From assembly GCF_009363115.1 (NCBI RefSeq), contig NZ_CP045298.1, positions 3,593,501-3,657,500 on the forward strand: a DNA stretch of 64,000 nt, written 5' to 3'. The number at the start of each line of letters is the position of its first letter. The stretch's first letter is position 1. A program made the position numbers and the translations under genes. Source of the stretch: Paenibacillus brasilensis (GTDB lineage Bacteria; Bacillota; Bacilli; Paenibacillales; Paenibacillaceae). Under the pieces are notes generated by a model, which had not been told where the DNA came from, searched no databases, and was given only the letters and a program-made list of their open reading frames with translations. Shown one piece after another: positions 8,759-64,000 of this stretch.

Positions 8759-10402
<1,644 letters not shown>

Positions 10403-10468: not shown

Positions 10469-11665
10469 TTAACTCTGATCAGATTTTTTTGAGGCTCTCA
10501 TTAGTTCGCTGAACTTTTGAGCAGCCTCTTTTCTTTTTGGCTTAGTTATATGAAGGTATATTCTGCGTGTTATCTCGTCGTTTGCGTGTCCAAGCCGCTG
10601 CATGATTTGTTCGAGAGTAGCTCCGGCTTCGGCTAATAGTGATGTATGAGTGTGGCGAAGTGAGTGCGGGGTGAGGTCAGGATTAAGCCCAGCTAGTTTT
10701 AGAAGTCGCTTCATCCGAAGTTCAACCATTTTTATTACCTGAGGATACCCAGCAAACTTACCGATTCTTGCGAATATGAAACCTTGGTCGTGATAAGTTT
10801 TTGGTCTTTTTGATTTCTCTATTTGTTGAATGGTCAGAAGATTTTGAAATCCTACAATAATTTCGTGATCCACATCTATTTCCCGAACTGATGATACAGT
10901 TTTAGGTGTGTTGAGTTTGTAAAGAGCGTAATTATTATTCGGGTTGTATAGTGTTTTTGTTACTCTTATTTTGTCGTCTTCGAAGTTGATATCTAGTTCT
11001 TTTAATGCACATAATTCACCGACTCTCATACCGGTATAAGCTAAGGTATTGAAGGTTTCAAAGTCATTATCCAGTCCGTGTTCTTGAGCAATCTGCAAAA
11101 AATGTACGAGTTCATCCCTTTCTAAATACTTTGGTAGCTCGTTATTTTGTTCAAGCTCGTGAACCGTTTTCTGACGCTTTGGCAAAAAAGAAGTTGATGT
11201 AGGATCTGTTTTCAAAGCCCCGATTTTTAACCCATATGAAAAAATCATTCTGCCAGTTGAATGTACACCTGATAGCGTATTGTCGGCTAATTTATTTTGT
11301 AGACTTATGAGTGCATCCTGATACATCTGCTCAGTGATCGAAGATGCATTGAGTTTCGCAAAGAACGGTAACAAGTTTTCTTTTTCATTAGTTCTGATTC
11401 GGATCGTACCATCTTTTTTTGGTTTTCCATGAGAACTATAATATTTCAGCCACTTTTCAGATAGTTCCTCAAAGGTCATTTTGTTTTCTTCTTTGAACAC
11501 GCCTCGATTTAATTCTGAAAGCATATCTGCAGCAGCAGCTTGCGCTTCCTTTTTGGTTCTAAATCCGCCTTTTCCCTTTTGCTTTCTTTTACCTGTTACT
11601 GGATCTACACCTACACCGATCATAAATGACCATGTTGATCCTCGTTTATAAAAACTACCTTCCAC
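10469..11665 (-). CDS. int: Tyrosine-type site-specific integrase
   Basis: 398 aa. N-terminal arm-binding domain (about 1-60, with GFRTKKEAQAAA), SAM-like core-binding domain (about 63-160), catalytic domain with R214 (TGMRVGEL), K255, H334-x-x-R337 (HSLRH), H360 (LGHAN) and nucleophile Y370 (RRIYLH): all six residues present. GTG start with AAAGGAG 9 nt upstream. It follows the repressor gene by 15 bp on the same strand, so int is probably read from the repressor promoter. Confidence 0.95.
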   Translation of the reverse strand: MEGSFYKRGSTWSFMIGVGVDPVTGKRKQKGKGGFRTKKEAQAAAADMLSELNRGVFKEENKMTFEELSEKWLKYYSSHGKPKKDGTIRIRTNEKENLLPFFAKLNASSITEQMYQDALISLQNKLADNTLSGVHSTGRMIFSYGLKIGALKTDPTSTSFLPKRQKTVHELEQNNELPKYLERDELVHFLQIAQEHGLDNDFETFNTLAYTGMRVGELCALKELDINFEDDKIRVTKTLYNPNNNYALYKLNTPKTVSSVREIDVDHEIIVGFQNLLTIQQIEKSKRPKTYHDQGFIFARIGKFAGYPQVIKMVELRMKRLLKLAGLNPDLTPHSLRHTHTSLLAEAGATLEQIMQRLGHANDEITRRIYLHITKPKRKEAAQKFSELMRASKKSDQS

Positions 11666-11680
11666 TCTTGAACACTCCTT

Positions 11681-12616
11681 TTATTGTTTGAAATGCCCTA
11701 CATAAACCCCACAAACTATAAACTCATTTGGTGTCACCTCCATGGACTGATAAGAATCATTTTCTGGCACAAGATTAAATTTCGCAGAACCTTCAGACCA
11801 TTTCATTCTCTTTAAAACGCCTTCCTCGCCGTTAATGATAACCGCAACGATTTGTCCATTGAATTCGGCCCAGCTTTCTTTCCTCATGAAAACAATGTCG
11901 CCATCATTAATACCTGCATTGACCATAGAGTCACCTTTTACTCTTAGAGCAAAATCTGGTTGTTTTTGTTTCATAAATGGATAATTTATGTATTCTTCGA
12001 TGTTATTTTCTGCAATTATCCCGTCGCCTGCACAGACTGACTCGATCAGAGGTATCGGTTTTGCGGTTTTAACTAAAGTCAAATACTCACCTAGTTTTGG
12101 AGAATACTTATTCAACATATTTTCGAGAGCGTTAATTACATCATTCTTTTGTTCAATGTTAAGATCGCCACGCAGATACTCGGCTTTAATATCTTCTAAA
12201 GTAGCATGGGAAAACAAATCAACGATCTGTGGATCGACGAATAAGCTAATTATTTCTCTATGTAAGTCTTTATCAATATGAGTAAACAAGAACACTTTAT
12301 CAATTAGACCGTAAATTCGGTTGTCGAGCTCCTCGTTTTCGTTCATGAAATTAGCGAGAAACGTTTCATGATTCTCCTCTAACCCTTTTAAATAACCCGC
12401 TGCTTTCATTAATTCACCATATGTAACCCCATCCAGGTGGCGAGAAATTTGCATAAGTGTGTTCGGTGAAGGTTGCTGCGTATTCTTTTCGATTCGAGTG
12501 AGTGTGGCAGCTGAGATACCGCTTTTGTCAGCAAAGTCTTTCTTTGTTTTATAACCGCTTGCAAGTCTCTTTTCTTTAATGATGTCACCTATTGTTTTTT
12601 TGTTCATTGCCTTCAA
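11681..12616 (-). CDS. CI-like phage repressor, XRE HTH plus S24 (LexA-type) autocleavage domain
   Basis: 311 aa. XRE helix-turn-helix at about 8-62 (KSGISAATLTRIEKNTQQPS), helical linker, then S24 peptidase domain: Ala196-Gly197 cleavage site (CAGDG), catalytic Ser230 (KGDSM) and Lys269 (GVLKRM). It should maintain lysogeny and self-cleave when RecA is activated, giving SOS induction. Starts: TTG 12616 with GGGAG just upstream, or ATG 12607. The four ATTGCG-N4-CGCAAT sites upstream are its likely operators. Confidence 0.93.
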   Translation of the reverse strand: MKAMNKKTIGDIIKEKRLASGYKTKKDFADKSGISAATLTRIEKNTQQPSPNTLMQISRHLDGVTYGELMKAAGYLKGLEENHETFLANFMNENEELDNRIYGLIDKVFLFTHIDKDLHREIISLFVDPQIVDLFSHATLEDIKAEYLRGDLNIEQKNDVINALENMLNKYSPKLGEYLTLVKTAKPIPLIESVCAGDGIIAENNIEEYINYPFMKQKQPDFALRVKGDSMVNAGINDGDIVFMRKESWAEFNGQIVAVIINGEEGVLKRMKWSEGSAKFNLVPENDSYQSMEVTPNEFIVCGVYVGHFKQ

Positions 12617-12645: not shown

Positions 12646-12674
12646 ACTATAACATAAATATTGCGTGTACGCAA
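12646..12674 (-). promoter_or_regulatory. Leftward repressor/integrase promoter
   Basis: On the minus strand, -35 TTGCGT (12669-12674), 17-bp spacer, -10 TATAGT (12646-12651). The -35 lies inside operator 12660-12675, so the repressor can control its own synthesis. Confidence 0.75.
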
Positions 12675-12769
12675 TTATTTATATAAAACGTATTGCGCGA
12701 CCGCAATCGCTGTAATATACTTAAATTGCGAGGGCGAAATTACACAATAATAAATTGCGAGTACGCAAT
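12660..12769. promoter_or_regulatory. Four phased repressor operators
   Basis: 16-bp palindromes ATTGCG-N4-CGCAAT at 12660-12675, 12692-12707, 12725-12740 (one mismatch, CGAAAT) and 12754-12769. Start-to-start spacing is 32, 33 and 29 bp, about three helical turns, so repressor dimers would align on one face of DNA. The last site ends 15 bp before the Cro-like gene. Confidence 0.88.
12693..12721 (+). promoter_or_regulatory. Rightward early lytic promoter
   Basis: -35 TTGCGC (12693-12698) inside the second operator, 17-bp spacer, -10 TATACT (12716-12721). A second candidate (TTGCGA 12726-12731, N16, TAATAA) overlaps the third operator. Either drives the early genes and would be shut by repressor. 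Confidence 0.7.
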
Positions 12770-54784: not shown

Positions 54785-55282
54785 GTGAGCCAAATAAAAA
54801 TGTTTGGCAGCACCGTATGGACCGCAATCGTCGGGACATCGGAAAAGGAGGCGGCGGCAGGGGGAGTGGCGGCGCTGACTGGTCTGATTGTTACATTTTT
54901 GGGTGGGTGGGACAAGCCGCTCCAGGTGCTGCTTACGATGATGGTATTGGATTATATTTTTGGAGTTACCGCAGCTATTAAAAACAAAAAAATGGACAGC
55001 GATGTGATGTTTTGGGGAGGTATCCGTAAGGCTACGGTGCTGATGGTGGTGGGATTATCCGCGCAATTGGATGATTGGTTACAACCCGGTGCGCCGATCT
55101 TCCGGACGGCGGCGATCTATTTTTATGCTGGCCGTGAAGGATTGTCGTTGGCAGAAAACTTGGGAGCAATAGGCATCCCACTACCGTTCAAATTAAAGAG
55201 CTTTTTGAAGCAGCTTAACGAGAAAGGAGATGGACAGGATGGCACAACTGACGCTGGAACAGATACAAAAAAAGTCTCTTAA
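54785..55282 (+). CDS. Phage holin (toxin-secretion/lysis holin, holin_4 family)
   Basis: 165 aa from GTG 54785. Helices at about 27-45 (AAGGVAALTGLIVTFLGGW), 48-65 (LLTMMVLDYIFGVTAAI) and 82-98 (IRKATVLMVVGLSAQLDDW); C-terminal GREGLSLAENLGAIGIPLPFKLKSFLKQL is characteristic. Forms the membrane lesion that lets the endolysin out. Confidence 0.9.
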   Translation: MSQIKMFGSTVWTAIVGTSEKEAAAGGVAALTGLIVTFLGGWDKPLQVLLTMMVLDYIFGVTAAIKNKKMDSDVMFWGGIRKATVLMVVGLSAQLDDWLQPGAPIFRTAAIYFYAGREGLSLAENLGAIGIPLPFKLKSFLKQLNEKGDGQDGTTDAGTDTKKVS

Positions 55283-56012
55283 TCGACTTGTCGGGCTGCA
55301 TCCGGTTTTCAAAATGGCCTTAGAAAAACTCATTGAGCGCTGCTATGCCCGTGGAGTATGGGTGCTAATTGTCCAAGGGTTGCGGACATATGTAGAGCAG
55401 GATGCTTTGTATGCTCAAGGTCGGACAAAGCCAGGACAAGTCGTAACGAAAGCACGGGGCGGATACAGCAATCATAATTTTGGGTTCGCAGCAGATTTCG
55501 CACTGTTGCTACGGGATGGGCGGACTGTGTCATGGGACACGCTGGAGGACGACGATAAGGACTCGCTGCCGGATTGGAGTGAAGTCGTCGAGGAAGCCAA
55601 GAAACTCGGGCTTGAGTGGGGCGGTGATTGGCGGAGCTTTAAAGATATGCCCCACCTTCAGATGGTCTTTGGACTCACGACGGCTCAATTTCGGGCAGGT
55701 AAGCGCCCGAGTCAGGCGCAGCTTGACACAGTTTTATCCAAGATTAATAAAACGGAGGATGAGGAAATGACAGCAGAAGAAAAAGCAGCATTTAAGGAGT
55801 TACAAAACACCGTACAGAAGCAGGCTGACCGCATTAAGGTACTGGAGTTTGCAGCGAAGCAACCGAAAGTACCGACATGGGCAGAACAAGCCTGCATCAA
55901 CGCCAAGACCGCAGGGGTGCTGGACACGGCGAATGACGGTAGCTATGACTTTTACAGACTGGTCGCTATTCTTGATCGAGCTGGCGTGTTCAATAAGAAA
56001 GGGGATAAGTAA
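55239..56012 (+). CDS. Endolysin, M15 L-alanyl-D-glutamate peptidase (CwlK/VanY-like)
   Basis: 257 aa from ATG 55239. Zn-binding SNHNFGFAADF (H79, D86) and H139 in DMPHLQM, the LAS/M15 signature; LRTYVEQDALYAQGR precedes it. Residues 175-257 form a coiled-coil linker and a small C-terminal domain (PTWAEQACINAKTAGVLDT) likely for wall targeting. No signal peptide, so export is holin-dependent. Confidence 0.9.
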   Translation: MAQLTLEQIQKKSLNRLVGLHPVFKMALEKLIERCYARGVWVLIVQGLRTYVEQDALYAQGRTKPGQVVTKARGGYSNHNFGFAADFALLLRDGRTVSWDTLEDDDKDSLPDWSEVVEEAKKLGLEWGGDWRSFKDMPHLQMVFGLTTAQFRAGKRPSQAQLDTVLSKINKTEDEEMTAEEKAAFKELQNTVQKQADRIKVLEFAAKQPKVPTWAEQACINAKTAGVLDTANDGSYDFYRLVAILDRAGVFNKKGDK

Positions 56013-56014
56013 TC

Positions 56015-56575
56015 ATGCAAACAATTATAGAAACTGTACAACCATATGTAAGTACCATCGCTACAGCGGCTATAGGTGTACTCACAACCATCGTATTGGC
56101 TGGATTGAACAATGTTAAGGTAAAAGTAAATACATGGCTAGAGACACGTACCACAGCCGCACAGAGGGAAGTAATCCATAAGATTGCTGGAGAGGGCTTT
56201 GCCTTTGCACAAACAGCATTTAAAGAAGCTGGGGGAGAACGTAAGCTTCAGGAGGCTTTGCAGTATGCTTCACTTACTCTTTCCAGTCAAGGTATCGTAG
56301 TATCCCAAGTAGAGCTAAGATCCGCGATTGAGAAGGCATATCTGGAGTATAAGGCTAAGACAAAGACAGTGCTGGCTACCGAAGCACAGCCGAGTGAAGA
56401 GGTAACACAGGCAGCAGCTAAGGAAGCTGTATCTGGTCTTGCTGCAAAGTTGAATGATTTCTTGGCTCAAGCTACGGCGGAGGTATCCAATATTGTTCCT
56501 GTTCAGGTACAGTCTGAACCTGAGCCTATTCCGGTATCAACAGAAGCTACACAAACGCCTGCTACTACTGAATAA
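56015..56575 (+). CDS. Second holin, LLH-family
   Basis: 186 aa. N-terminal membrane helix (about 10-30, VSTIATAAIGVLTTIVLAGL), then EVIHKIAGEGFAFAQTAFKEAGGERKLQEALQYASLTLSSQG typical of LLH holins; the tail is Ala/Glu/Thr/Pro-rich. 2 nt after the endolysin. Confidence 0.8.
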   Translation: MQTIIETVQPYVSTIATAAIGVLTTIVLAGLNNVKVKVNTWLETRTTAAQREVIHKIAGEGFAFAQTAFKEAGGERKLQEALQYASLTLSSQGIVVSQVELRSAIEKAYLEYKAKTKTVLATEAQPSEEVTQAAAKEAVSGLAAKLNDFLAQATAEVSNIVPVQVQSEPEPIPVSTEATQTPATTE

Positions 56576-56589
56576 ACTGTAAGTAAATA

Positions 56590-56623
56590 CCCTGCTGGCT
56601 TCGGCTGGCGGGGATATTTTTTT
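56590..56623 (+). terminator. Lysis-operon terminator
   Basis: ACCCTGCTGGC-TTCG-GCTGGCGGGGAT hairpin (some G-T pairs and one mismatch) then seven T. It belongs to a recurring terminator type in this region (58081, 59836). Confidence 0.85.
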
Positions 56624-56625
56624 GC

Positions 56626-56654
56626 TTGAAATACGAACATTTGTTCTGTATAAT
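56626..56654 (+). promoter_or_regulatory. Consensus promoter with LexA box in the spacer
   Basis: -35 TTGAAA (56626-56631), 17-bp spacer, -10 TATAAT (56649-56654). CGAACATTTGTTCT at 56634-56647, inside the spacer, matches the Gram-positive LexA box (CGAAC-N4-GTTC core exact). SOS induction should release it. The next gene is the Panacea unit. Confidence 0.85.
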
Positions 56655-56748
56655 ATAAGTATAAGCACAGATTATTGCGATATACATACTGTAAGGAATA
56701 TTTACCCTGTTTTTTTAAAAAAACTAAATTTCAAGAAGGAATTAGTGT

Positions 56749-56814
56749 AGGCTATGTCGAAAGTTGTGTTTAATTTTATATAAATTAAATACAACCTGTT
56801 TAAGTAATAGCCTG
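56749..56814 (+). other. Nested inverted repeats in the Panacea leader
   Basis: Inner stem GTTGTGTTTAATTT (56764-56777) / AAATTAAATACAAC (56783-56796) with TATAT loop; outer AGGCTAT (56749-56755) / ATAGCCT (56808-56814). The remaining leader (56655-56930) has no ORF I trust except a 9-codon ATG frame at 56754. Confidence 0.6.
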
Positions 56815-56930
56815 AAAGCCGTGCTTATGATGTTTGCGTGTTCTTGTGTTTGGGAAAGTTGAGAATGTACTACGCAAAAGGCGGTGATGTCCAAATGGCT
56901 AAAATAATTTATTTAGAACAGGTGAAGACT

Positions 56931-57407
56931 ATGAGTACAACTAGTACGACTTTCACAGAAACAACAGTTTTCGATGTAGCTAAAGCCTTTCTTAATTTAG
57001 AACCAATGACACCTAAGAAACTTCAGAAGCTTTGTTTTTATGCATACTCCTGGTATATGGTTTTTTATGAGGGAGATAAACTATTTGACGGTGAATTTGA
57101 GGCTTGGATTCATGGACCGGTTAACCCCGAGCTTTATCGTGAGTATAGGAAATATGGATTTAACGAAATACCGCAAGAAGATGTATTGCCGGATGAAATT
57201 TCGAACAATCCTCGATTGGTAGAATTTTTAGAGCATATTCATCAAACGTATGGTCACTTGGATGGTGATCAGTTGGAGTATTTGACCCATCAAGAAGATC
57301 CATGGCTTAATGCGCGTAAGAACTTGAAACCTTACGAACCATCTAATAATGTCCTTGATGATGATGATATTATTGAATATTACAGGGGCGAGCTTGAGAA
57401 TGGCTAA
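56931..57407 (+). CDS. Panacea (SocA-like, DUF4065) antitoxin
   Basis: 158 aa from ATG 56931 (AGGTGA 5 nt upstream; ATG 56895 also possible). VAKAFLNLEPMTPKKLQKLCFYAYSWYMVFY, LFDGEFEAWIHGPVNPELYREYRKYGF and FLEHIHQTYGHLDGDQLEYLTHQEDPW are the full Panacea signature. Panacea proteins act as antitoxins for many unrelated toxins encoded next door (known for the family). Overlaps the next gene by 8 nt. Confidence 0.88.
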   Translation: MSTTSTTFTETTVFDVAKAFLNLEPMTPKKLQKLCFYAYSWYMVFYEGDKLFDGEFEAWIHGPVNPELYREYRKYGFNEIPQEDVLPDEISNNPRLVEFLEHIHQTYGHLDGDQLEYLTHQEDPWLNARKNLKPYEPSNNVLDDDDIIEYYRGELENG

Positions 57408-58053
57408 AGAGAAAAGAAATAGAGCTCCTGTTTTGGGGAGTATTCCTAGACCTTCTGAGTCCACTCCGCGCGCTGGTGAAGAAAGATTAACTAAAGTAGC
57501 TCAACGTAATATTGAGGGTTTTAAAGAAAGAAACGTCATTTTTTCTTGGCAGTTTTTTGATCGCAGTAATCCATTGTTTAACTGTGGTGAAGTGGGTCCT
57601 GAATGGTTTGTGGACTTAATGGATTCCATGAAAAGCATTTCGCAAATGGAGTTCGAAAAATTCAGAATCCATAATGGCCCACCATTAAGAGTTCATTCTC
57701 ATGAGTGGGACAGAGTAAGCGCTAAGTATCCACTTAACGAGATGTTGCTTAAGCAAATTGAACAAGATACCCTTCAGTTTGCTGTTTCGAAGGCAAGAGG
57801 GCGGGTTCATGGTTTTGTTATTTCTAATGTATTCTACATAGTTTGGGTAGATCCACATCACAACCTCTATCCAATGGAAAGACATGGTGGATTGGATTAT
57901 TGCGATGCGCCTAGCAGCTGTTATGACTGCTTGGAAATTGAAAATGAGGAACTGAGAACACGATTAGACGAGTTGTATGCAGAATATGGCAGATTAGTGG
58001 ATGAAAATGATAGACTTCAAAGTAAAAAAGACAACTTAGAAAAATCATCTTAA
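57400..58053 (+). CDS. Putative toxin partner of the Panacea antitoxin
   Basis: 217 aa from ATG 57400. Middle NVIFSWQFFDRSNPLFNCGE... and RVHSHEWDRVSAKYPLNEMLLKQIEQD... then GRVHGFVISNVFYIVWVDPHHNLYPMERHGG; C-terminal CYDC and a coiled coil. His residues in HSHEW and DPHHN could be catalytic, unproven. Toxin role inferred from the coupled Panacea gene. No toxin family recognised. Confidence 0.6.
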   Translation: MAKEKRNRAPVLGSIPRPSESTPRAGEERLTKVAQRNIEGFKERNVIFSWQFFDRSNPLFNCGEVGPEWFVDLMDSMKSISQMEFEKFRIHNGPPLRVHSHEWDRVSAKYPLNEMLLKQIEQDTLQFAVSKARGRVHGFVISNVFYIVWVDPHHNLYPMERHGGLDYCDAPSSCYDCLEIENEELRTRLDELYAEYGRLVDENDRLQSKKDNLEKSS

Positions 58054-58080
58054 AAATTGCAATCCGAAAGCATCGGTGAC

Positions 58081-58112
58081 ACCCTACTGGCTAAGCTGGT
58101 GGGGTATTTTTT
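58081..58112 (+). terminator. Terminator of the Panacea unit
   Basis: ACCCTACTGGC-TAA-GCTGGTGGGGT hairpin then six T; near copy of the 56590 and 59836 hairpins. Confidence 0.8.
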
Positions 58113-58134
58113 ACGTTTATGGGGAGGAATACAT

Positions 58135-58581
58135 ATGTTTAGATGGATATTCACCGTACTAATTACAATCCTATTAGCTGGCTGCAGCATACAACAAGAT
58201 GTTGTAAAGACCACTAAGAGCGACCCTGTAGCCGTTCCAGTAACACAGGTATCGGCAGACATGGCTAAGCTGGAATTTCCGTCATCAAAGTATCCCGAGA
58301 CAGCGCAGCACATCAAGGAGGCCATAGCAGCCGGAAAGTCACCAGTATGCACCATAGACCGTGATGGAGCTGACCATAACCGTGAGTTGTCCCTTAAAGG
58401 TGTGCCGACACGCAAGGGCAAGGATCGAGACGAGTGGCCTATGGCCCTGTGTGCCGAAGGTGGAGAGGGTGCAGATATAAAGTACATATCACCCAAAGAT
58501 AATCGTGGTGCAGGTTCATGGGTAGGTCACAAATTGGACGAGTATAAGGATGGAACGAAAGTTGAATTTATAGTTAAGTAA
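58135..58581 (+). CDS. NucA/NucB-family deoxyribonuclease, predicted lipoprotein
   Basis: 148 aa. Signal peptide with lipobox LAGC (Cys about 18). [16 protein letters not shown] and [20 protein letters not shown], then [28 protein letters not shown], are the NucA/NucB active-site motifs (D-R-D-G and E-W residues). Surface-anchored nuclease in a monocistronic unit; GGGGAGG upstream of ATG 58135. Confidence 0.88.
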
Positions 58582-58646
58582 CATTTCTTACAGCTTGACT
58601 ACATTCGGCGTGTTACATTGCAATAAAAGTGCAGAGGAGCGCGGTT

Positions 58647-58901
58647 ATGATAACACTGACAATCGTGGAGAGCGCCATAACACACAATGATGGAGAGTTT
58701 GATTGGTTTGCTCCAGTACCGACTGGAGAAATTGAGGTATTGTCATATATAAATCCCGTCACTGGGACGGACCAGACGGAAGAATTTATTAAAGCCAACG
58801 GTGGACTTGAAAAACTGGAGATAGAAAAAACGAATGACGGCGAATATAGATGTACGCGCGATACGCTCGACCGACTTAAAGCTGTATTGGGTGCCGTGTA
58901 A
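58647..58901 (+). CDS. Small moron protein of unknown function, 84 aa
   Basis: MITLTIVESAITHNDGEFDW...; GAGGAGCGCGG upstream. Own terminator follows. No family recognised. Confidence 0.55.
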   Translation: MITLTIVESAITHNDGEFDWFAPVPTGEIEVLSYINPVTGTDQTEEFIKANGGLEKLEIEKTNDGEYRCTRDTLDRLKAVLGAV

Positions 58902-58912
58902 TAAATAACAAT

Positions 58913-58939
58913 CCCACGCTAAACCTTAATTGGTCGGCG
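58913..58939 (+). terminator. Terminator (ACCTTAA-TGGTCGG type)
   Basis: CCACGCTAAACC-TTAATT-GGTCGGCGG with T8. Shares the inner AACC/GGTC element with 61531 and 61603 hairpins. Confidence 0.8.
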
Positions 58940-59000
58940 GTTTTTTTTGTTGAAGGTATTACCACACAATTCACCGAATATCTATCCTGAGGTGATCAAC

Positions 59001-59216
59001 ATGAACCATACATATAAAGTGTTAAAGTCGGATATAGAACTATTTGCAGCTGCATTGAGCCAGGTAAGGGTGTATGTAGTTCAGCCATTGGGAGAGGATT
59101 TGATAGATATTGTGGACTATGGTGGCGCAGTGGAGAAGATTACACCAGAGTCGATTAAGATTAACGGATATTATTTTTTCCGCAATCAGTTTGAATTTAG
59201 AGTAGATCTTAAATGA
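59001..59216 (+). CDS. Small moron protein of unknown function, 71 aa
   Basis: ATG 59001, GAGGTGATC upstream. MNHTYKVLKSDIELFAAAL, mixed alpha/beta. No family recognised. Confidence 0.55.
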   Translation: MNHTYKVLKSDIELFAAALSQVRVYVVQPLGEDLIDIVDYGGAVEKITPESIKINGYYFFRNQFEFRVDLK

Positions 59217-59279
59217 CCTACCAGATTGTAGTCGGTAGTCCCTTTAAGGTAGACCATATCAAAAAAATAGGAGGGGAAA

Positions 59280-59701
59280 ATGATGAAGAAAAGAATATTT
59301 CTGTTCTCGATTTTATCTTTAGCTTTAGCAACTACGGTAGGTGCTGCTTCAGCTTCACCAAGTATAACTAGCAAAAACACCATAATTAATCAAAGATCGG
59401 GCGGAAGCGCAACTGTTAGAGAAGCCTTTAGTGTCCCAATAGGATTGGGTATGTTAAACTTCGTATGAAGAATCACTCTGATCATCTAGTAAAGGTAAGT
59501 TTAACTCACAGCGGTTCAGACAAAGTATATATTGAAGGATTAGTAATCGCTCCTCACGACACAGTTATCTGGAAAAGCACTGATAAAGGCTTCCCAGACG
59601 GTATGCGTTCTGGAGACTATAAACTTCAGTGGAGAGGCAGCGACTATAAAGTTAATGGGGAAACATGGGGAATAGCTGATTCACAGCCTGGAAACCTCTA
59701 A
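59280..59701 (+). pseudogene. Secreted small protein disrupted by a frameshift
   Basis: First frame (59280-59468): signal peptide MKKRIFLFSILSLALATTVG plus 37 residues ending GLGMLNFV. Second frame (59465-59701): MKNHSDHLVKVSLTHSGSDK...WKSTDKGFPDGMRSGDYKLQWRG. Read upstream, the second frame gives GYVKLRMKNHSDH, continuing VPIG-L-G naturally, so one G seems lost in TTGGG near 59449. Intact ancestor about 140 aa, exported. Alternatively two coupled ORFs (ATGA). Confidence 0.65.
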
Positions 59702-59716
59702 CTTAACTAACTATAC

Positions 59717-59755
59717 AACTTGAACCCCCTATCCATTGGGTGGGGGGTTCAAGTT
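59717..59755. terminator. Strong inverted repeat after the secreted-protein gene
   Basis: AACTTGAACCCCC / GGGGGTTCAAGTT, 13 perfect bp, loop around TATCCATTGGGTG. No T-run, so it may be a symmetrical terminator or a stabiliser. The rest of 59702-60018 holds a second terminator (59836-59868) and a possible -35 TTGACA at 59939-59944 for the next gene. Confidence 0.65.
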
Positions 59756-59835
59756 GTTCAAGACAGCAAGTGAATTAATCTCCTTTATAGGTCGGCATAG
59801 CTTTTTTAGTTGATCAGTTTGAATTTAAAGTAAGG

Positions 59836-59868
59836 ACTCTACTGGCATTTAGCTGGTAGGGTATTTTT
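59836..59868 (+). terminator. Terminator (CTACTGGC...GCTGGTAGGG type)
   Basis: CTCTACTGGC-ATTTA-GCTGGTAGGG hairpin then ATTTTTG; related to 56590 and 58081. Confidence 0.75.
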
Positions 59869-60018
59869 GTTTATAGCGGTGGCCAAAGCATAAATCATGA
59901 CAAACGGAGCTTTTCTACATGATTCGCAAAAAAAGATATTGACAACTGGTTGATTGCTGGACAAAAATAGTAAATGAATATAAAATACTGGAATTTTTAT
60001 GCGAGGGGTGGCTATGGC

Positions 60019-61434
60019 ATGGAACATACACCTACGATTCGAGCAGAATTAGACAGATTCCTAAAACAAGAGGGTTTGAGCTTAGCACGATTTGGGCAAA
60101 TTGCAGGCATGAATAGGGGAGCGGTAAGTGCCATTGTGTCAGGAAATAAGCCTATGTCCATTAACCAGCTTGACCAAATTACTGAGGCTATGGGCTTACC
60201 AGAAGGTCATTTTTACGACTTGTTTATAGAAAACTTCATCATCGACTTACAACCGAATATGAGGCGGATCGAGCCATTTTTGTATCGCTGTGCGGAGTTG
60301 GACAAGTTGGATACGATCCGTCGAGTGGTGGGAGTCATCATGGACAATCTACTCTATTCGTCAAAACTATTTGACATTGCGGAAGATCTATTTGCACAGG
60401 GACGACATGAAGCGGCACTGATACTCTATGAGAATGTAGCAGAAGTGGAGAAGTACCAACATTCTGAACGTTTGGCAGTCTGTCAATATCGTATATTCAC
60501 GATTCAAGTTGGAGACGATCAGGGTCTTAATCTCAAGGCTGCAACACTATTTGAACCCTTCGTGGAACGCCTAGATGAAATAGACCAGCTTGACGCATTG
60601 AAGGATTTGGCCAACGTGTATAGGTCTTTACGTAAATGGGACAAGGTAGACGAAATGGCAAGGCAAATGAGAGCTAAAGCCGAAATCCAATATACACTGA
60701 AACATCAACAGAATGGCCGAGAACGCCCTGAATCTACTGATAAGCTAAGCCGTCCTTTGTTTGTATACATTTCCTATGCTGACCTGCTGTGTGCAGGTGT
60801 CTACGAAGCCCAAGGCGATTACCACCAAGCTCTACAATATACATACGCCTACGATAATTTAGATTGGGTTAAAGAGACAGACGAAGATACCCAACACTGG
60901 ATTGGTTTGTTTAAGCACTGGGCAAAAGCTAATATTATTGTCAATAAGCTTTTATCCGGAGATATAAAGGTGCTGCAAGAATATATTGAATACATCGATG
61001 CAGCGAAGGATACAACTCAAGAAGATCGGATTATTCAACTACTGAACATTATGATAACGGCTAACCGATATGATATCGACGTTAGTGATATAATTAAACG
61101 ATTTGAAACGGACATTGTATCATTATCACAACACTCATCAAGTGATATATATACTCAACAAGTGGTACCAGATTATTTTGCATGGTGTGGTTACGAGTTG
61201 GCTCATTATTATTTACATCGAAATTCTTATGATGATGGTTTTAAACATTTGATGTATTCAATGGTAAGTTATCATACACTAAATAATGAGACTAATTTCA
61301 TAAATTGTATGGGGCTATTTTTACATTTTCGAGAACATGCGACTCCTGAAACCAAAGCAAATTTTTTAAATCTTATTGAAAAGGTGTGGATGAACAATGT
61401 TAAAAAAAATGGCACTGGTGATCGTCGCGGCTAG
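60019..61434 (+). CDS. RRNPP-type quorum-sensing regulator: XRE HTH plus TPR
   Basis: 471 aa from ATG 60019 (GAGGGGTGG upstream). XRE HTH at about 4-60 (RFGQIAGMNRGAVSAIVSGNKPMSINQLDQITEAM). From about 75 on all-helical TPR-like repeats (ALILYENVAEVEKYQ, LKDLANVYRSLRKWDKVDEMA, ADLLCAGVYEAQGDYHQALQYTYAYD) as in Rap/NprR/AimR. A signal-peptide-bearing small gene overlaps its 3' end. It resembles the AloR regulators I recall from Paenibacillus polymyxa. Peptide binding would change DNA binding (inference). Confidence 0.85.
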   Translation: MEHTPTIRAELDRFLKQEGLSLARFGQIAGMNRGAVSAIVSGNKPMSINQLDQITEAMGLPEGHFYDLFIENFIIDLQPNMRRIEPFLYRCAELDKLDTIRRVVGVIMDNLLYSSKLFDIAEDLFAQGRHEAALILYENVAEVEKYQHSERLAVCQYRIFTIQVGDDQGLNLKAATLFEPFVERLDEIDQLDALKDLANVYRSLRKWDKVDEMARQMRAKAEIQYTLKHQQNGRERPESTDKLSRPLFVYISYADLLCAGVYEAQGDYHQALQYTYAYDNLDWVKETDEDTQHWIGLFKHWAKANIIVNKLLSGDIKVLQEYIEYIDAAKDTTQEDRIIQLLNIMITANRYDIDVSDIIKRFETDIVSLSQHSSSDIYTQQVVPDYFAWCGYELAHYYLHRNSYDDGFKHLMYSMVSYHTLNNETNFINCMGLFLHFREHATPETKANFLNLIEKVWMNNVKKNGTGDRRG

Positions 61435-61516
61435 CTTTTTATTAATTGTTACTGTGCCGGATCAAGCCTTTAACCACCATAGTATCCAACCTCAAGTACA
61501 ACATGGAGGAGCTTAA
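61397..61516 (+). CDS. Secreted pro-signal peptide (AloP/Phr-like), 39 aa
   Basis: MLKKMALVIVAASFLLIVTV is a signal sequence, followed by a short hydrophilic tail PDQAFNHHSIQPQVQHGGA from which a 5-10 aa signal could be cut. ATG 61397 lies inside the end of the regulator gene (38-nt overlap, other frame), preceded by AAGGTG. This layout is the rule for Rap-Phr and Alo pairs. Confidence 0.8.
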   Translation: MLKKMALVIVAASFLLIVTVPDQAFNHHSIQPQVQHGGA

Positions 61517-61530
61517 ACGTCAGTAAAGCA

Positions 61531-61570
61531 AATCCCCGCTAACCTTAACTGGTCGGCGGGGATTGTTTTT
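61531..61570 (+). terminator. Terminator of the regulator-peptide unit
   Basis: AATCCCCGC / GCGGGGATT, nine perfect bp, with an inner AACC/GGTC element, then GTTTTTG. Confidence 0.85.
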
Positions 61571-61602
61571 GTCTTGATACCGCTGTTTATAATACACCTG
61601 GA

Positions 61603-61640
61603 AAGCTCTGCTAACCTTATGGTCGGCAGAGCTTATTTGC
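61603..61640. terminator. Hairpin terminator, probably bidirectional
   Basis: AAGCTCTGC / GCAGAGCTT, nine perfect bp, followed by ATTTGC on plus; on minus it lies just past the stop of the 61640 gene and may end that transcript. Confidence 0.7.
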
Positions 61641-61828
61641 TATTTTATACCCATTTGAACTCTCTCAAATATTTCCGCACTCTGCTGCATACCCAAACCG
61701 TGTGCGGCTCCTAAATGTCCTCTCAATATGCTTATGTCGTCATCGTTGGTTAGATCTAAGGTCATTAGGCCGTATTTGCAATGACGATCCAATATGGATT
61801 TTAGCAGGGCATCAAATTCATCATTCAT
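61640..61828 (-). CDS. Minus-strand small protein of unknown function, 62 aa
   Basis: MNDEFDALLKSILDRHCKYGLMTLDL; GGAGGG upstream of ATG. First of four leftward genes that may be a separate module. No family recognised. Confidence 0.6.
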   Translation of the reverse strand: MNDEFDALLKSILDRHCKYGLMTLDLTNDDDISILRGHLGAAHGLGMQQSAEIFERVQMGIK

Positions 61829-61840
61829 CGTTTATCCCTC

Positions 61841-62044
61841 CTACTTGAACAATTTTCCGATCAGCTTAAACAAGTCAAACGTGCTGCGATTGTACACCTT
61901 ATTGTAAGCCGCCTTGCGTGGGTCACGCAGCCATCCCCAGCCCCGTGGCATCTTAATGCCTGCGCGGTGTATAATCTGCCGTTTGAGGCTGGTACGGGCT
62001 GCTATACGCTTGTTTAGGCTGGGTTTACGTGGAACATATTTCAT
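61841..62044 (-). CDS. Minus-strand basic small protein, 67 aa
   Basis: MKYVPRKPSLNKRIAARTSLKRQI...KMPRGWGWLRDPRKAAYNKVYNR. Very basic, possible nucleic-acid contact. It abuts the hicB stop (shared base), so it may be cotranscribed with hicAB. Confidence 0.6.
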   Translation of the reverse strand: MKYVPRKPSLNKRIAARTSLKRQIIHRAGIKMPRGWGWLRDPRKAAYNKVYNRSTFDLFKLIGKLFK

Positions 62045-62469
62045 TATCTTTTCTCCAAAGGATTAATACCAAGACTCCGCTTCAATCCTTCCTGTAGAAC
62101 CTGAGAGAAATTAAGGTGTTGCTGTTCAGCTTGATCATTGAGCCATTTAGGGACTGTCAGTGTCTTTTTAACGGCCTTACTTTCCATAGCTTCCCGAACT
62201 ACAGGCATATAGACCTGAACGTCACACGCAGCCTCTGTTTCTTCCCGTTGTGCCAAAATAACATCAAGCGGGGAAGGATCAGGAATAGGATCGTTATCTT
62301 GTTCTAAAACATACATAAACCCCTCCAGCGCTTCCCGAGCTGCAGCATGCGCTTCTTCGGCGGTATCTCCAAATGTAAGGCAACCGGGTAGATCTGGAAA
62401 ACGAACGGATATTCCATCCTCAGAATGATCGAGCAGTGCCCAATAGCGATAAACGTCTTTTTTACTCAC
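62044..62469 (-). CDS. hicB: HicB antitoxin
   Basis: 141 aa. N-terminal degenerate RNase H-like fold YWALLDHSEDGISVRFPDLPGCLTFGDTAEEAHAAAREALEGF, C-terminal RHH-like TLTVPKWLNDQAEQQHLNFSQVLQEGLK for DNA binding. Neutralises HicA and probably represses the operon. AGGAGG upstream. Confidence 0.93.
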   Translation of the reverse strand: MSKKDVYRYWALLDHSEDGISVRFPDLPGCLTFGDTAEEAHAAAREALEGFMYVLEQDNDPIPDPSPLDVILAQREETEAACDVQVYMPVVREAMESKAVKKTLTVPKWLNDQAEQQHLNFSQVLQEGLKRSLGINPLEKR

Positions 62470-62498
62470 TATAATTAACCTCCTTTGGGGAGGGCTGC

Positions 62499-62693
62499 TC
62501 AGCCCTTAATCCCCGCTGTTTTTAGGATACTTGCTTGTGTCTTCGGAGGAAAGCTTTTCTTAGGATGCGGAACCGTAACCTTACCGATTTTTGTCGGATG
62601 CTTGAAGTAATGGTGACTGCCATGTACTCCGATTATGTACCATCCGTCCTCTTCTAACAGTTTGATTAATTCTCTCGAACTGTATGATTTCAA
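62499..62693 (-). CDS. hicA: HicA mRNA interferase toxin
   Basis: 64 aa from TTG 62693 (AAGGAGG about 8 nt upstream). dsRBD-like fold: SSRELIKLLEEDGWYIIGVHGSHHYFKHP with catalytic His27 in GSHHYF, and VPHPKKSFPPKTQASILKTAGI. Cleaves mRNA when free. The ATG at 62726 precedes the ribosome site and is rejected. Confidence 0.93.
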   Translation of the reverse strand: MKSYSSRELIKLLEEDGWYIIGVHGSHHYFKHPTKIGKVTVPHPKKSFPPKTQASILKTAGIKG

Positions 62694-62717
62694 ATGACTA
62701 CCCTCCTTACATTTATC

Positions 62718-62746
62718 ATTATACACGTATATTAAATACGTGTCAA
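62718..62746 (-). promoter_or_regulatory. Consensus hicAB promoter with palindromic operator
   Basis: Minus strand: TTGACA (62741-62746), 17 bp, TATAAT (62718-62723), fully consensus. Palindrome ACACGTAT-N5-ATACGTGT at 62723-62743 fills the spacer, the likely HicB operator. A further ACGTAT/ACACGT half-site pair lies upstream (about 62747-62765). Confidence 0.9.
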
Positions 62747-62786
62747 CGTATAAATAACACGTATTGTTTTATGGGCATATAATATT

Positions 62787-62812
62787 AAAAACCCCGGATT
62801 GCTCCGGGGCTG
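62787..62812. terminator. Terminator of the 62816 gene (bidirectional hairpin)
   Basis: CCCCGGA / TCCGGGG (62792-62798, 62803-62809), TTGC loop; on minus it is followed by a T-run. Confidence 0.85.
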
Positions 62813-62815
62813 GTT

Positions 62816-63706
62816 TTATTCAAGACCAAATTGGGCTTTTGCTTGTAGTTTGTTACCTTGGAATGTGAAATTGGCATTTGCACCAAGTCCGCCCTCGCCT
62901 TTATACGAATACATTACAGTATAGTATTTGTCTCCCTTTTCGCCAACCTCTGAGAGAGCCTCGCCAGGACCACCGATAATTTTAGCAACTTCCTCATAAG
63001 TCATTCCATTTTTAATTTTGTTATATTTAGCTTTGGTAATGGTTCCGGAATTTTGCGGCTCTGCTACTGTACGACCCTCAATTTTTCCGTTATATAGTTT
63101 CCAGTTAGATTCACCCTTAACGCCACGCGAACCAAGTTCACCACTGAATGAAACAATATCCCCTTGGTTCAGGCCGTTCAGTTCTGAACGATCAGAAACT
63201 TTTACGATAACAACATCTCCGAGTTTTTTCTTTTCAGCGCTAATATCTGACCATGATTCGCCGTTGTAATCTGCTGGTTTACCGTAAACATAAAGACTGC
63301 TTGAGCCAGCTTCAATGACTACACCTGACCATTTCACAACTTGATTTCTTACACTGTCGAATGTTTCTCCCTGCTTGGAAACTGGCATTGCAAAGAGAGT
63401 AGATGAAAACTTATCAAAAGGAAGAGATGTGTCAATCAATGGCTTTTTATCATCAGTCTGTTCCTTTTGCGCTGATTCATTGGTAGCTTCTTTCTCTTTA
63501 ACAGGCGTAGTAGCTACTGGTTTAGAATTAGCTTCGGTTGATTTCTGTGTGTCTGCGACTGATATTCCAATAATAAATATTATGAAAGCAGCTAACCCAA
63601 AGAGAAACATTTTCTTAGCCTTGCCATTCTTTTTTATTAAAGCTATAGCCCACAAAACAAAAAACACAAAAAAAGCCAGCAAAGCAATCACAGCAATTGC
63701 AGTCAT
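62816..63706 (-). CDS. Membrane protein with OB-like and DUF3862-like extracytoplasmic domains, 296 aa
   Basis: Two N-terminal membrane helices (about 3-24 and 33-51), a disordered Lys/Glu/Thr linker (55-90), an OB-like middle (KWSGVVIEAGSSSLYVYGK...VKVSDRSELNGLNQGDIVSFSGEL) and a C-terminal DUF3862/SmpA-like ITKAKYNKIKNGMTYEEVAKIIGGPGEALSEVGE. Cell-surface sensor or binding protein; function unknown. May be host or prophage. Confidence 0.75.
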   Translation of the reverse strand: MTAIAVIALLAFFVFFVLWAIALIKKNGKAKKMFLFGLAAFIIFIIGISVADTQKSTEANSKPVATTPVKEKEATNESAQKEQTDDKKPLIDTSLPFDKFSSTLFAMPVSKQGETFDSVRNQVVKWSGVVIEAGSSSLYVYGKPADYNGESWSDISAEKKKLGDVVIVKVSDRSELNGLNQGDIVSFSGELGSRGVKGESNWKLYNGKIEGRTVAEPQNSGTITKAKYNKIKNGMTYEEVAKIIGGPGEALSEVGEKGDKYYTVMYSYKGEGGLGANANFTFQGNKLQAKAQFGLE

Positions 63707-63775
63707 TACATAACCCCTATCTATTGGTAATATTGTTATATAATTAGTCTATCAGACCTAGGAATATTTATCCAC

Positions 63776-63803
63776 AAAAAAGCAAGAGGATTATTCCCCT
63801 TGC
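63776..63803 (-). terminator. Leftward terminator of the edge gene
   Basis: On minus: GCAAG-GGGAATAATCCT-CTTGC hairpin overlapping the stop codon region, then TTTTTT. Confidence 0.8.
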
Positions 63804-64000
63804 TCCAACTTCTGTTCCAGATAATAAACATCTACCCTGGTACGTTTGGATACCTGGGCCACGGCAAAAGCAAATTTTTCAGCTTCAACATAAGAAGGCC
63901 TGAACCCTACATCTGATATAACGCCTTTGTAGTCTATCATGACCACGTACCCATCTTCCTGTGGCACGATTCGTACATGGTCGTCCCCCCTTTTTTCCTT
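63791..64000 (-). CDS. Partial ORF cut by the window edge
   Basis: At least 69 residues open to the right edge; visible stretches HVRIVPQEDGYVVMIDYKGV and FRPSYVEAEKFAFAVAQVSK, ending VDVYYLEQKLEQGE. True start lies beyond the window. No family recognised. Confidence 0.6.
   Translation of the reverse strand, partial: KEKRGDDHVRIVPQEDGYVVMIDYKGVISDVGFRPSYVEAEKFAFAVAQVSKRTRVDVYYLEQKLEQGE

Follow-up and report, generated by a model that had tools for sequence, protein, structure and literature searches.

The window analysed here is a stretch of 64,000 nucleotides (nt) from the genome of Paenibacillus brasilensis (contig NZ_CP045298.1, positions 3,593,501 to 3,657,500). Near its right end it carries, on the plus strand, the gene pair aloR (60019..61434) and aloP (61397..61516), together called aloRP below. 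The product of aloR is a 471-aa peptide receptor of the RRNPP/AloR type with a helix-turn-helix (HTH) and a TPR part, and aloP encodes a putative 39-aa pro-pheromone. The ATG start of aloR at 60019 is preceded by GAGGGGTGG, and the two genes overlap by 38 nt. AloP has a hydrophobic N-terminal stretch, as found with a Kyte-Doolittle script and not with a dedicated signal-peptide predictor, and its length falls within the 32-50 aa of the short ORF expected behind an aloR. The peptide ends in PQVQHGGA; by analogy with the six residues of AloP13, its mature end is predicted to be VQHGGA. The pair is followed by a terminator hairpin (61529..61572, plus strand), which shows compensatory changes and has a conserved inner part, CTAACCTTA..TGGTCGGC. 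This core is present four times in the genome: twice 3' of aloP (61539-61557 and 61611-61627), once about 3 kb behind a close second copy of aloR (copy 2, see below), and once 64 nt before an orphan gene of the type found at 59001 in the window. An Rfam scan of 58000-64000 gave no match at the gathering score. A promoter block, TATTGACAACTGGTTGATTGCTGGACAAAAATAG, lies upstream of aloR (59937..59970, plus strand) and was delimited by upstream alignment, a position weight matrix (PWM), a pattern search of the own genome and a consensus scan. In the form TATTGACA..TG..TTAATT the block precedes aloR in much of its clade. It occurs at eight sites of the own genome with at most one mismatch (two matches for the control), seven of them before aloR genes and the eighth at C1:4305129. 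A second promoter type exists among aloR loci.

AloR matches HTH and TPR models below the Pfam cut-offs, and a PDB search with its sequence returned nothing beyond two weak HTH matches. The AlphaFold2 model is an all-helical TPR superhelix (pLDDT 87.4). PDB matches of this model include NprR, RapI, RapH and AimR, all of them peptide receptors, and the top match among viral models is S5MC02 (E 1.1e-11). The modelled fold supports a TPR receptor; it does not by itself prove RRNPP membership, because unrelated TPR proteins score equal or higher.

The family assignment comes from relatives in the same genome. With AloR as the query, 26 matches reached E ≤ 0.001, of which about 20 are long. Fifteen other genes (L002-L016) are 44-93% identical to aloR and three more 33-34%; the latter include L017, the orthologue of Alo13, and the peptide behind it ends in SHGRGG. 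This is the mature AloP13 of Voichek et al. (PMC7425212), and its presence suggests a host at or near Paenibacillus polymyxa. AloP13 was reported to be secreted and to alter transcription when added, and secretion and processing to a C-terminal fragment were reported for other Alo peptides (PMC7425212). Judged by these sequence relatives, among them Alo13, the window pair is a member of the AloR-AloP family. It resembles AloR-AloP of Paenibacillus polymyxa in having an HTH and TPR receptor followed by a short pro-peptide with a hydrophobic N-terminus, and in the many paralogues per genome (PMC7425212). It differs in its location in a prophage and in having no Spo0E-like gene directly behind it. 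Its clade, unlike the AloR-AloP of that paper, has an MNRG-type HTH recognition helix in 28 of 31 phage-labelled rows. Taken together by sequence, the two genes very probably make and sense a small signal peptide.

The closest relative in the genome is copy 2, whose aloR is 93% identical to that of the window. It is located in a second prophage, between lysis genes and a different integrase, and the last eight residues of its AloP are the same (PQVQHGGA). A pattern scan for AloP behind L004-L008 (58-71% identity) found none; the pattern requires a GG/GT end. The second replicon (C2, 34.8 kb) has its own aloR-aloP pair (L124:13466-14821) with the peptide end GIIGGA and a Spo0E-like gene about 260 nt downstream.

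The prophage and its sibling without the pair

The tyrosine integrase of the prophage (10469..11665, minus strand; PF00589 1.6e-23, phrog_1 3.4e-70) and a CI-like repressor with an S24 peptidase domain (11681..12616, minus strand; PF00717 1.7e-23, phrog_4 1.6e-28) are situated next to groEL (8774-10402, plus strand; Pfam/PHROGs). The attL core, ATGGGCGGCATGATGTAA (10385..10402, plus strand), is the 3' end of groEL. This 18-bp sequence has a second exact copy 55.0 kb downstream, attR, at window-scale 65406-65423 (L038:1406-1423; genome C1 3658906-3658923), 1.4 kb past the window end. A tRNA attachment site is ruled out, the window being without tRNA genes. Portal, capsid, tail and lysis genes run from the repressor side up to 58581. 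The lysis end, all on the plus strand, consists of an endolysin (55230-56012), a holin (56015-56575), two genes of unknown function (56838-58053) and a lipoprotein-like gene with weak matches only (58057-58581); the PHROGs of 55230..58581 are phrog_2649, phrog_6918, phrog_1281 and phrog_8366. A megablast of 30000-54900 against phage records retrieved one record, covering 1% of the query. The pair is placed between the lysis genes and attR, so that aloR is 47 kb from CI on the integrated map and about 6 kb on the circular map.

A related genome (G024) contains a prophage at the same groEL end, with an integrase 94% and a CI repressor 91% identical to those of the window prophage. The att repeat is present at both of its ends, 49.2 kb apart. 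In its middle there is no DNA match to about 29.5-51.7 kb of the window, and it retains the integrase, CI, the holin, the lipoprotein-like gene and the gene at 62816. The aloRP pair lies inside a prophage, since the attL/attR repeat encloses it and the sibling has the same ends. In principle, the pair could be a host alo locus beside the prophage; the Alo paper gives its loci without prophage context, and the word prophage is absent from its main text (PMC7425212). However, attR lies beyond aloRP, both att sites of G024 flank a homologous right arm, and host DNA common to seven of the 12 relatives, and to G024, resumes only near window-scale 75985. This explanation is therefore rejected as extremely improbable. 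The interval behind attR (L038:1424-11984, window-scale 65424-75984) holds the remnants of an older element with integrase fragments and another aloR, 60% identical. Of the 12 relatives, seven carry an integrase or a remnant of one after groEL and two more a duplicated groEL end, which makes this site a hotspot.

The prophage pieces of G024 contain no homologue of aloR, aloP, HicA, HicB or the Spo0E-like gene. Homologues of the 59001 and 61841 genes are about 250 bp apart in G024; the same interval measures 2.6 kb in the window and contains a split secreted-protein gene and aloRP. L131 (G025) has the order aloR, aloP, 59001 gene and secreted gene. As this order differs from that of the window, the modules shuffle in the way of cargo. 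The pair looks like optional cargo (a moron) of the prophage and not like a life-cycle switch, to judge from these comparisons, because a prophage with this integrase and repressor type exists without it.

Much the same observations bear on an arbitrium-like role, in which AloR-AloP would set lysis versus lysogeny, or induction of the window prophage, as AimR-AimP does. The pair is like the arbitrium system of Bacillus phages in being a phage-borne receptor with an HTH, a TPR-like domain and a short peptide of predicted secretion. Arbitrium peptides likewise end in GA. Unlike arbitrium, it is not beside the repressor on the integrated map, the sibling has the same type of lysogeny genes and att site without the pair, and the position of the pair relative to the 59001 gene varies among phages, as that of cargo would. 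A PWM scan of the window for the aloR promoter motif scored the own site, which is in the training set, at 26.4 bits and the next at 9.8, with a reversed-sequence null of up to 13.4; no second site exceeded the null, the CI region at 12660-12769 included. An arbitrium-like role is thus improbable.

A preliminary description of this DNA had proposed a prophage-borne AloR/AloP-like unit composed of an XRE-TPR regulator, an overlapping 39-aa peptide gene and an own terminator. These points are confirmed by the receptor and its 38-nt overlap with aloP, the hairpin with compensatory changes, the approximately 20 AloR genes of the genome including Alo13, and the integrase and att repeat shared with the G024 sibling. 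The same description had also envisaged arbitrium-like guidance of lysogeny, which the G024 sibling weakens and which is not supported. Its link to the repressor region (targets including 12660-12769) was not borne out either, given the PWM null and the seven of eight genome sites that precede aloR genes; a target in that region is rejected. Its suggestion that lysogens could be counted by means of the pair is a possible one.

Recurrence in other prophages and covariation with the peptide

Relatives of aloR were collected as 201 merged matches; applying a score limit and discarding identical cores left 171. Loci were hand-picked among the matches listed, comprising all above approximately 56% identity on long enough contigs and 26 controls. 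Two merged rows (L161_17368 and L077) are artefacts; they are part of an initial tree and were left out of the 91-row tree below and of the peptide, covariation and Spo0E counts. Phage labels were given by tblastn, the queries being the window genes from 30.3 kb onward and seven annotated families, so prophages with other modules are missed. Eighteen IMG/VR loci carry aloR relatives; these were left out of the following counts, having been selected for being viral, as were loci with less than 6 kb upstream. Of the 52 loci with at least 66% identity (window included), 17 have lysis or structural genes of phages on the same strand in the 10 kb upstream, compared to 1 of 90 below 66%. The single positive of the latter group is taken for L165_177, which is on the same stretch as a phage-labelled copy. 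One further locus at ≥ 66% has phage genes in another position. Several phage types carry relatives, since the upstream families include three of holins, two of endolysins and two of tail proteins. In a quick tree of 91 rows, rooted on L201 and containing of the IMG/VR rows only L032 (copy 2 of this genome), all 20 phage-labelled rows fall within a 52-row clade (SH-aLRT 94), and its 26-row sister has none (99). Plasmids also carry relatives of aloR (34 records, up to 85.8% identity). The preliminary description of Alo systems as chromosomal paralogues was incomplete as to the close relatives in prophages and plasmids. In three IMG/VR loci (L113-L115) a distant AloR (39-42%) has lysis or tail genes of phages nearby; these loci fall outside the main clade and are possible independent captures.

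Several results weigh against a phage cargo. Integrase-like matches near aloR, searched with one query integrase, are not commoner at ≥ 66% identity (2/52) than below (4/90). The smallest node with all 20 phage-labelled rows holds 20 phage rows, 23 without a label and three too short to tell, and is unsupported. By the markers used, the lineage of the window pair is not exclusively phage-borne. Promoter type is independent of HTH type, the mean HTH distance being 0.453 within and 0.450 between types (82 rows, with crude classes and nine unclassed). For this reason the block is taken as a promoter and not as a proven operator; a role as AloR operator in autoregulation is not supported.

The tree requires 12 or more changes of the phage label, so that the pair was transferred between prophage and non-prophage locations or the prophages surrounding it decayed. 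Close relatives in phage and apparently non-phage places would also be expected if the pair were a host alo pair acquired by the phage, with chromosomal targets alone or no present role, and the neighbouring secreted gene, split over two frames, points the same way. On the other hand, aloR is under purifying selection (dN/dS 0.14-0.27), several phage types carry the pair at one edge, and receptor and peptide covary. A mere passenger is somewhat unlikely.

The covariation was examined on loci with a recognized AloP. Of the 99 rows with ≥ 55% identity, 72 have one, namely 29 of the 33 with a phage label and 43 of the 66 without; the recognition pattern demands a GG/GT end and misses others. The 33 phage-labelled rows include IMG/VR rows, and one (L144) was labelled via genes on the downstream side. 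AloP has a mean pairwise identity of 0.71 in the first 20 residues, 0.35 at residues -9 to -4 and 0.81 in the last three, and the 72 loci, phage-labelled or not, have 28 distinct last-six strings. Among 69 loci, peptide distance follows the distance of AloR residues 301-471 (Mantel r = 0.592, 0/999 permutations as high) and weakly that of residues 186-300 (r 0.208, 0/999); there is no covariation with residues 66-185 (r 0.058, 117/999) or the HTH (0.032, 233/999). The permutation counts are not strict probabilities because the rows are related; relatedness alone accounts less readily for a difference between segments of the same protein. The covariation of residues 301-471 bears indirectly on AloP as the putative ligand of the adjacent AloR. 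The start of a tandem second AloP gene is apparently present behind the first in L133, L136, L144, L110, L152, L156 and L160 (by eye, not translated throughout).

Neighbouring genes

The gene at 59001..59216 (plus strand) codes for 71 aa with a predicted Sm/Hfq-like fold (structure prediction); a search with its homologue L129 gave no Pfam or PHROGs match. A homologue is situated 180-345 nt behind aloR in 19 loci, namely 17 of 33 phage-labelled (eight of the 17 from IMG/VR) and 2 of 66 unlabelled, and several of these copies are partial or broken. The 59001-type gene is recurrent in Paenibacillus prophages, where it lies in the right arm, with or without alo; elsewhere in this genome there are three more long copies and four matches that are fragments or weak. 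It is rejected as a fixed third gene of the unit, being upstream in the window and copy 2 and occurring without alo in G024 and other remnants. The following secreted-protein gene (59280..59701, plus strand) is split over two overlapping frames (59280-59468 and 59465-59701), which are a single frame in L131; its first part weakly matches a bacteriocin-like NCBIfam model (E 0.0086). Convergent to alo, on the minus strand, are the HicB antitoxin (62044-62469; PF15919 1.4e-13) and the HicA toxin (62499-62726; PF07927 1.1e-20). The SOS- and toxin-antitoxin-type morons of the preliminary description are thus present as regards the toxin-antitoxin type; none of the SOS type was identified, and no special search for it was made.

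A Spo0E-like gene has its 3' part in the window (63791..64000, minus strand; 63791-64150 as a whole if the chosen TTG start is right; PF09388 8.2e-14 at C1:3657513-3657638). It lies inside the prophage, 2.4 kb behind aloR and ahead of a DUF3862 gene and HicAB. The pair might control this phosphatase and so manipulate sporulation, which would be compatible with a role as cargo. Such a pattern of phage-borne RRNPP systems acting on sporulation was proposed by Bernard et al. (PMC10075063), and the spo0E-like gene adjacent to alo13 was lowered by AloP13 (PMC7425212). Within 1.2 kb downstream of aloR, a Spo0E-like gene is found in 33 of the 64 loci with less than 55% identity and in 11 of the 28 with 55-66%. 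Against this, none is found in that interval in the 29 phage-labelled loci at ≥ 66%, and none anywhere in 11 other alo-bearing virus records, which may be fragments; the 11 are part of the 18 IMG/VR loci and do not include L031, the window's own prophage with its Spo0E-like gene. Furthermore, the window gene is on the opposite strand beyond HicAB, and the sibling prophage pieces have no homologue. Spo0E is rejected as a conserved phage-side partner, and its control by the window pair is unlikely. A regular-expression scan for a Spo0E motif gave no match, missing even profile-positive cases, and was not used.

Proposed working and significance

The complete AloR-AloP pair is likely to be optional cargo of a temperate phage, with a host resembling Paenibacillus polymyxa, and to signal the density of carriers, with an output that is probably a small regulon outside the CI switch. 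For the window pair we infer the secretion, processing, uptake and binding of AloP as well as the target and direction of regulation. AloP would be exported, cut down extracellularly to its C-terminal end (approximately VQHGGA) and re-imported by an oligopeptide permease. The peptide would be bound by the C-terminal TPR repeats of AloR (approximately residues 301-471), and binding would change the action of the HTH at DNA. As the signal comes from carriers alone, its level would report their density, the carriers being lysogens of the window prophage and of related prophages whose peptide has the same end. The regulon may be located in the prophage right arm, in the host or in both.

Peptide signalling on mobile elements is also described for phage-borne Rap-Phr and RRNPP cluster 8 (PMC10075063). 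Rap is without an HTH, and cluster 8, which occurs on Paenibacillaceae chromosomes, plasmids and phages, is separate from AloR (PMC10075063). Bernard et al. (2023) proposed that such signalling follows mobile-element density and named an AloR-AloP pair on a Brevibacillus plasmid (PMC10075063). No description of AloR pairs in Paenibacillus prophages was found in the available parts of PMC7425212, PMC10075063, PMC9765709 and PMC12700828; the supplementary tables of PMC10075063 may list such pairs. The AloR-like genes of the isolated Brevibacillus phages SecTim467 (25.5% identity) and Emery (22.3%) are both distant. In SecTim467 the open reading frame overlapping the end of the AloR-like gene shows no hydrophobic N-terminus. 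In Emery, gp60-gp61 (L237:3920-5403) pairs an AloR-like gene with a short peptide gene, whose product has a hydrophobic N-terminus and contains HGGIGW twice. XRE regulators and a gene of the AgrB family are next to the two genes, which form a candidate phage quorum-sensing locus.

A more far-reaching possibility is a guild of unrelated Paenibacillus prophages that share interchangeable pheromone dialects, AloR reading the total load of same-dialect lysogens (two here, both PQVQHGGA, with different integrases and sites). With the Hfq-like gene as the first behind the pair in many of them, prophage density would steer host RNA regulation and not a phage switch. This is speculative, with at best a slim chance of being right.

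Among phages, those of Bacillus are the best-known case of RRNPP signalling. An Alo lineage recurring at the cargo end of Paenibacillus prophages, with its variety of peptide ends and apparently uncoupled from Spo0E, would offer a second large system in which to study the acquisition and use of peptide signalling by phages. The window prophage with alo and the G024 sibling without it form a natural plus/minus pair. The lineage is also relevant to a published proposal (PMC12700828) in which AimR arose by co-option of a receptor that is shared with Paenibacillaceae.
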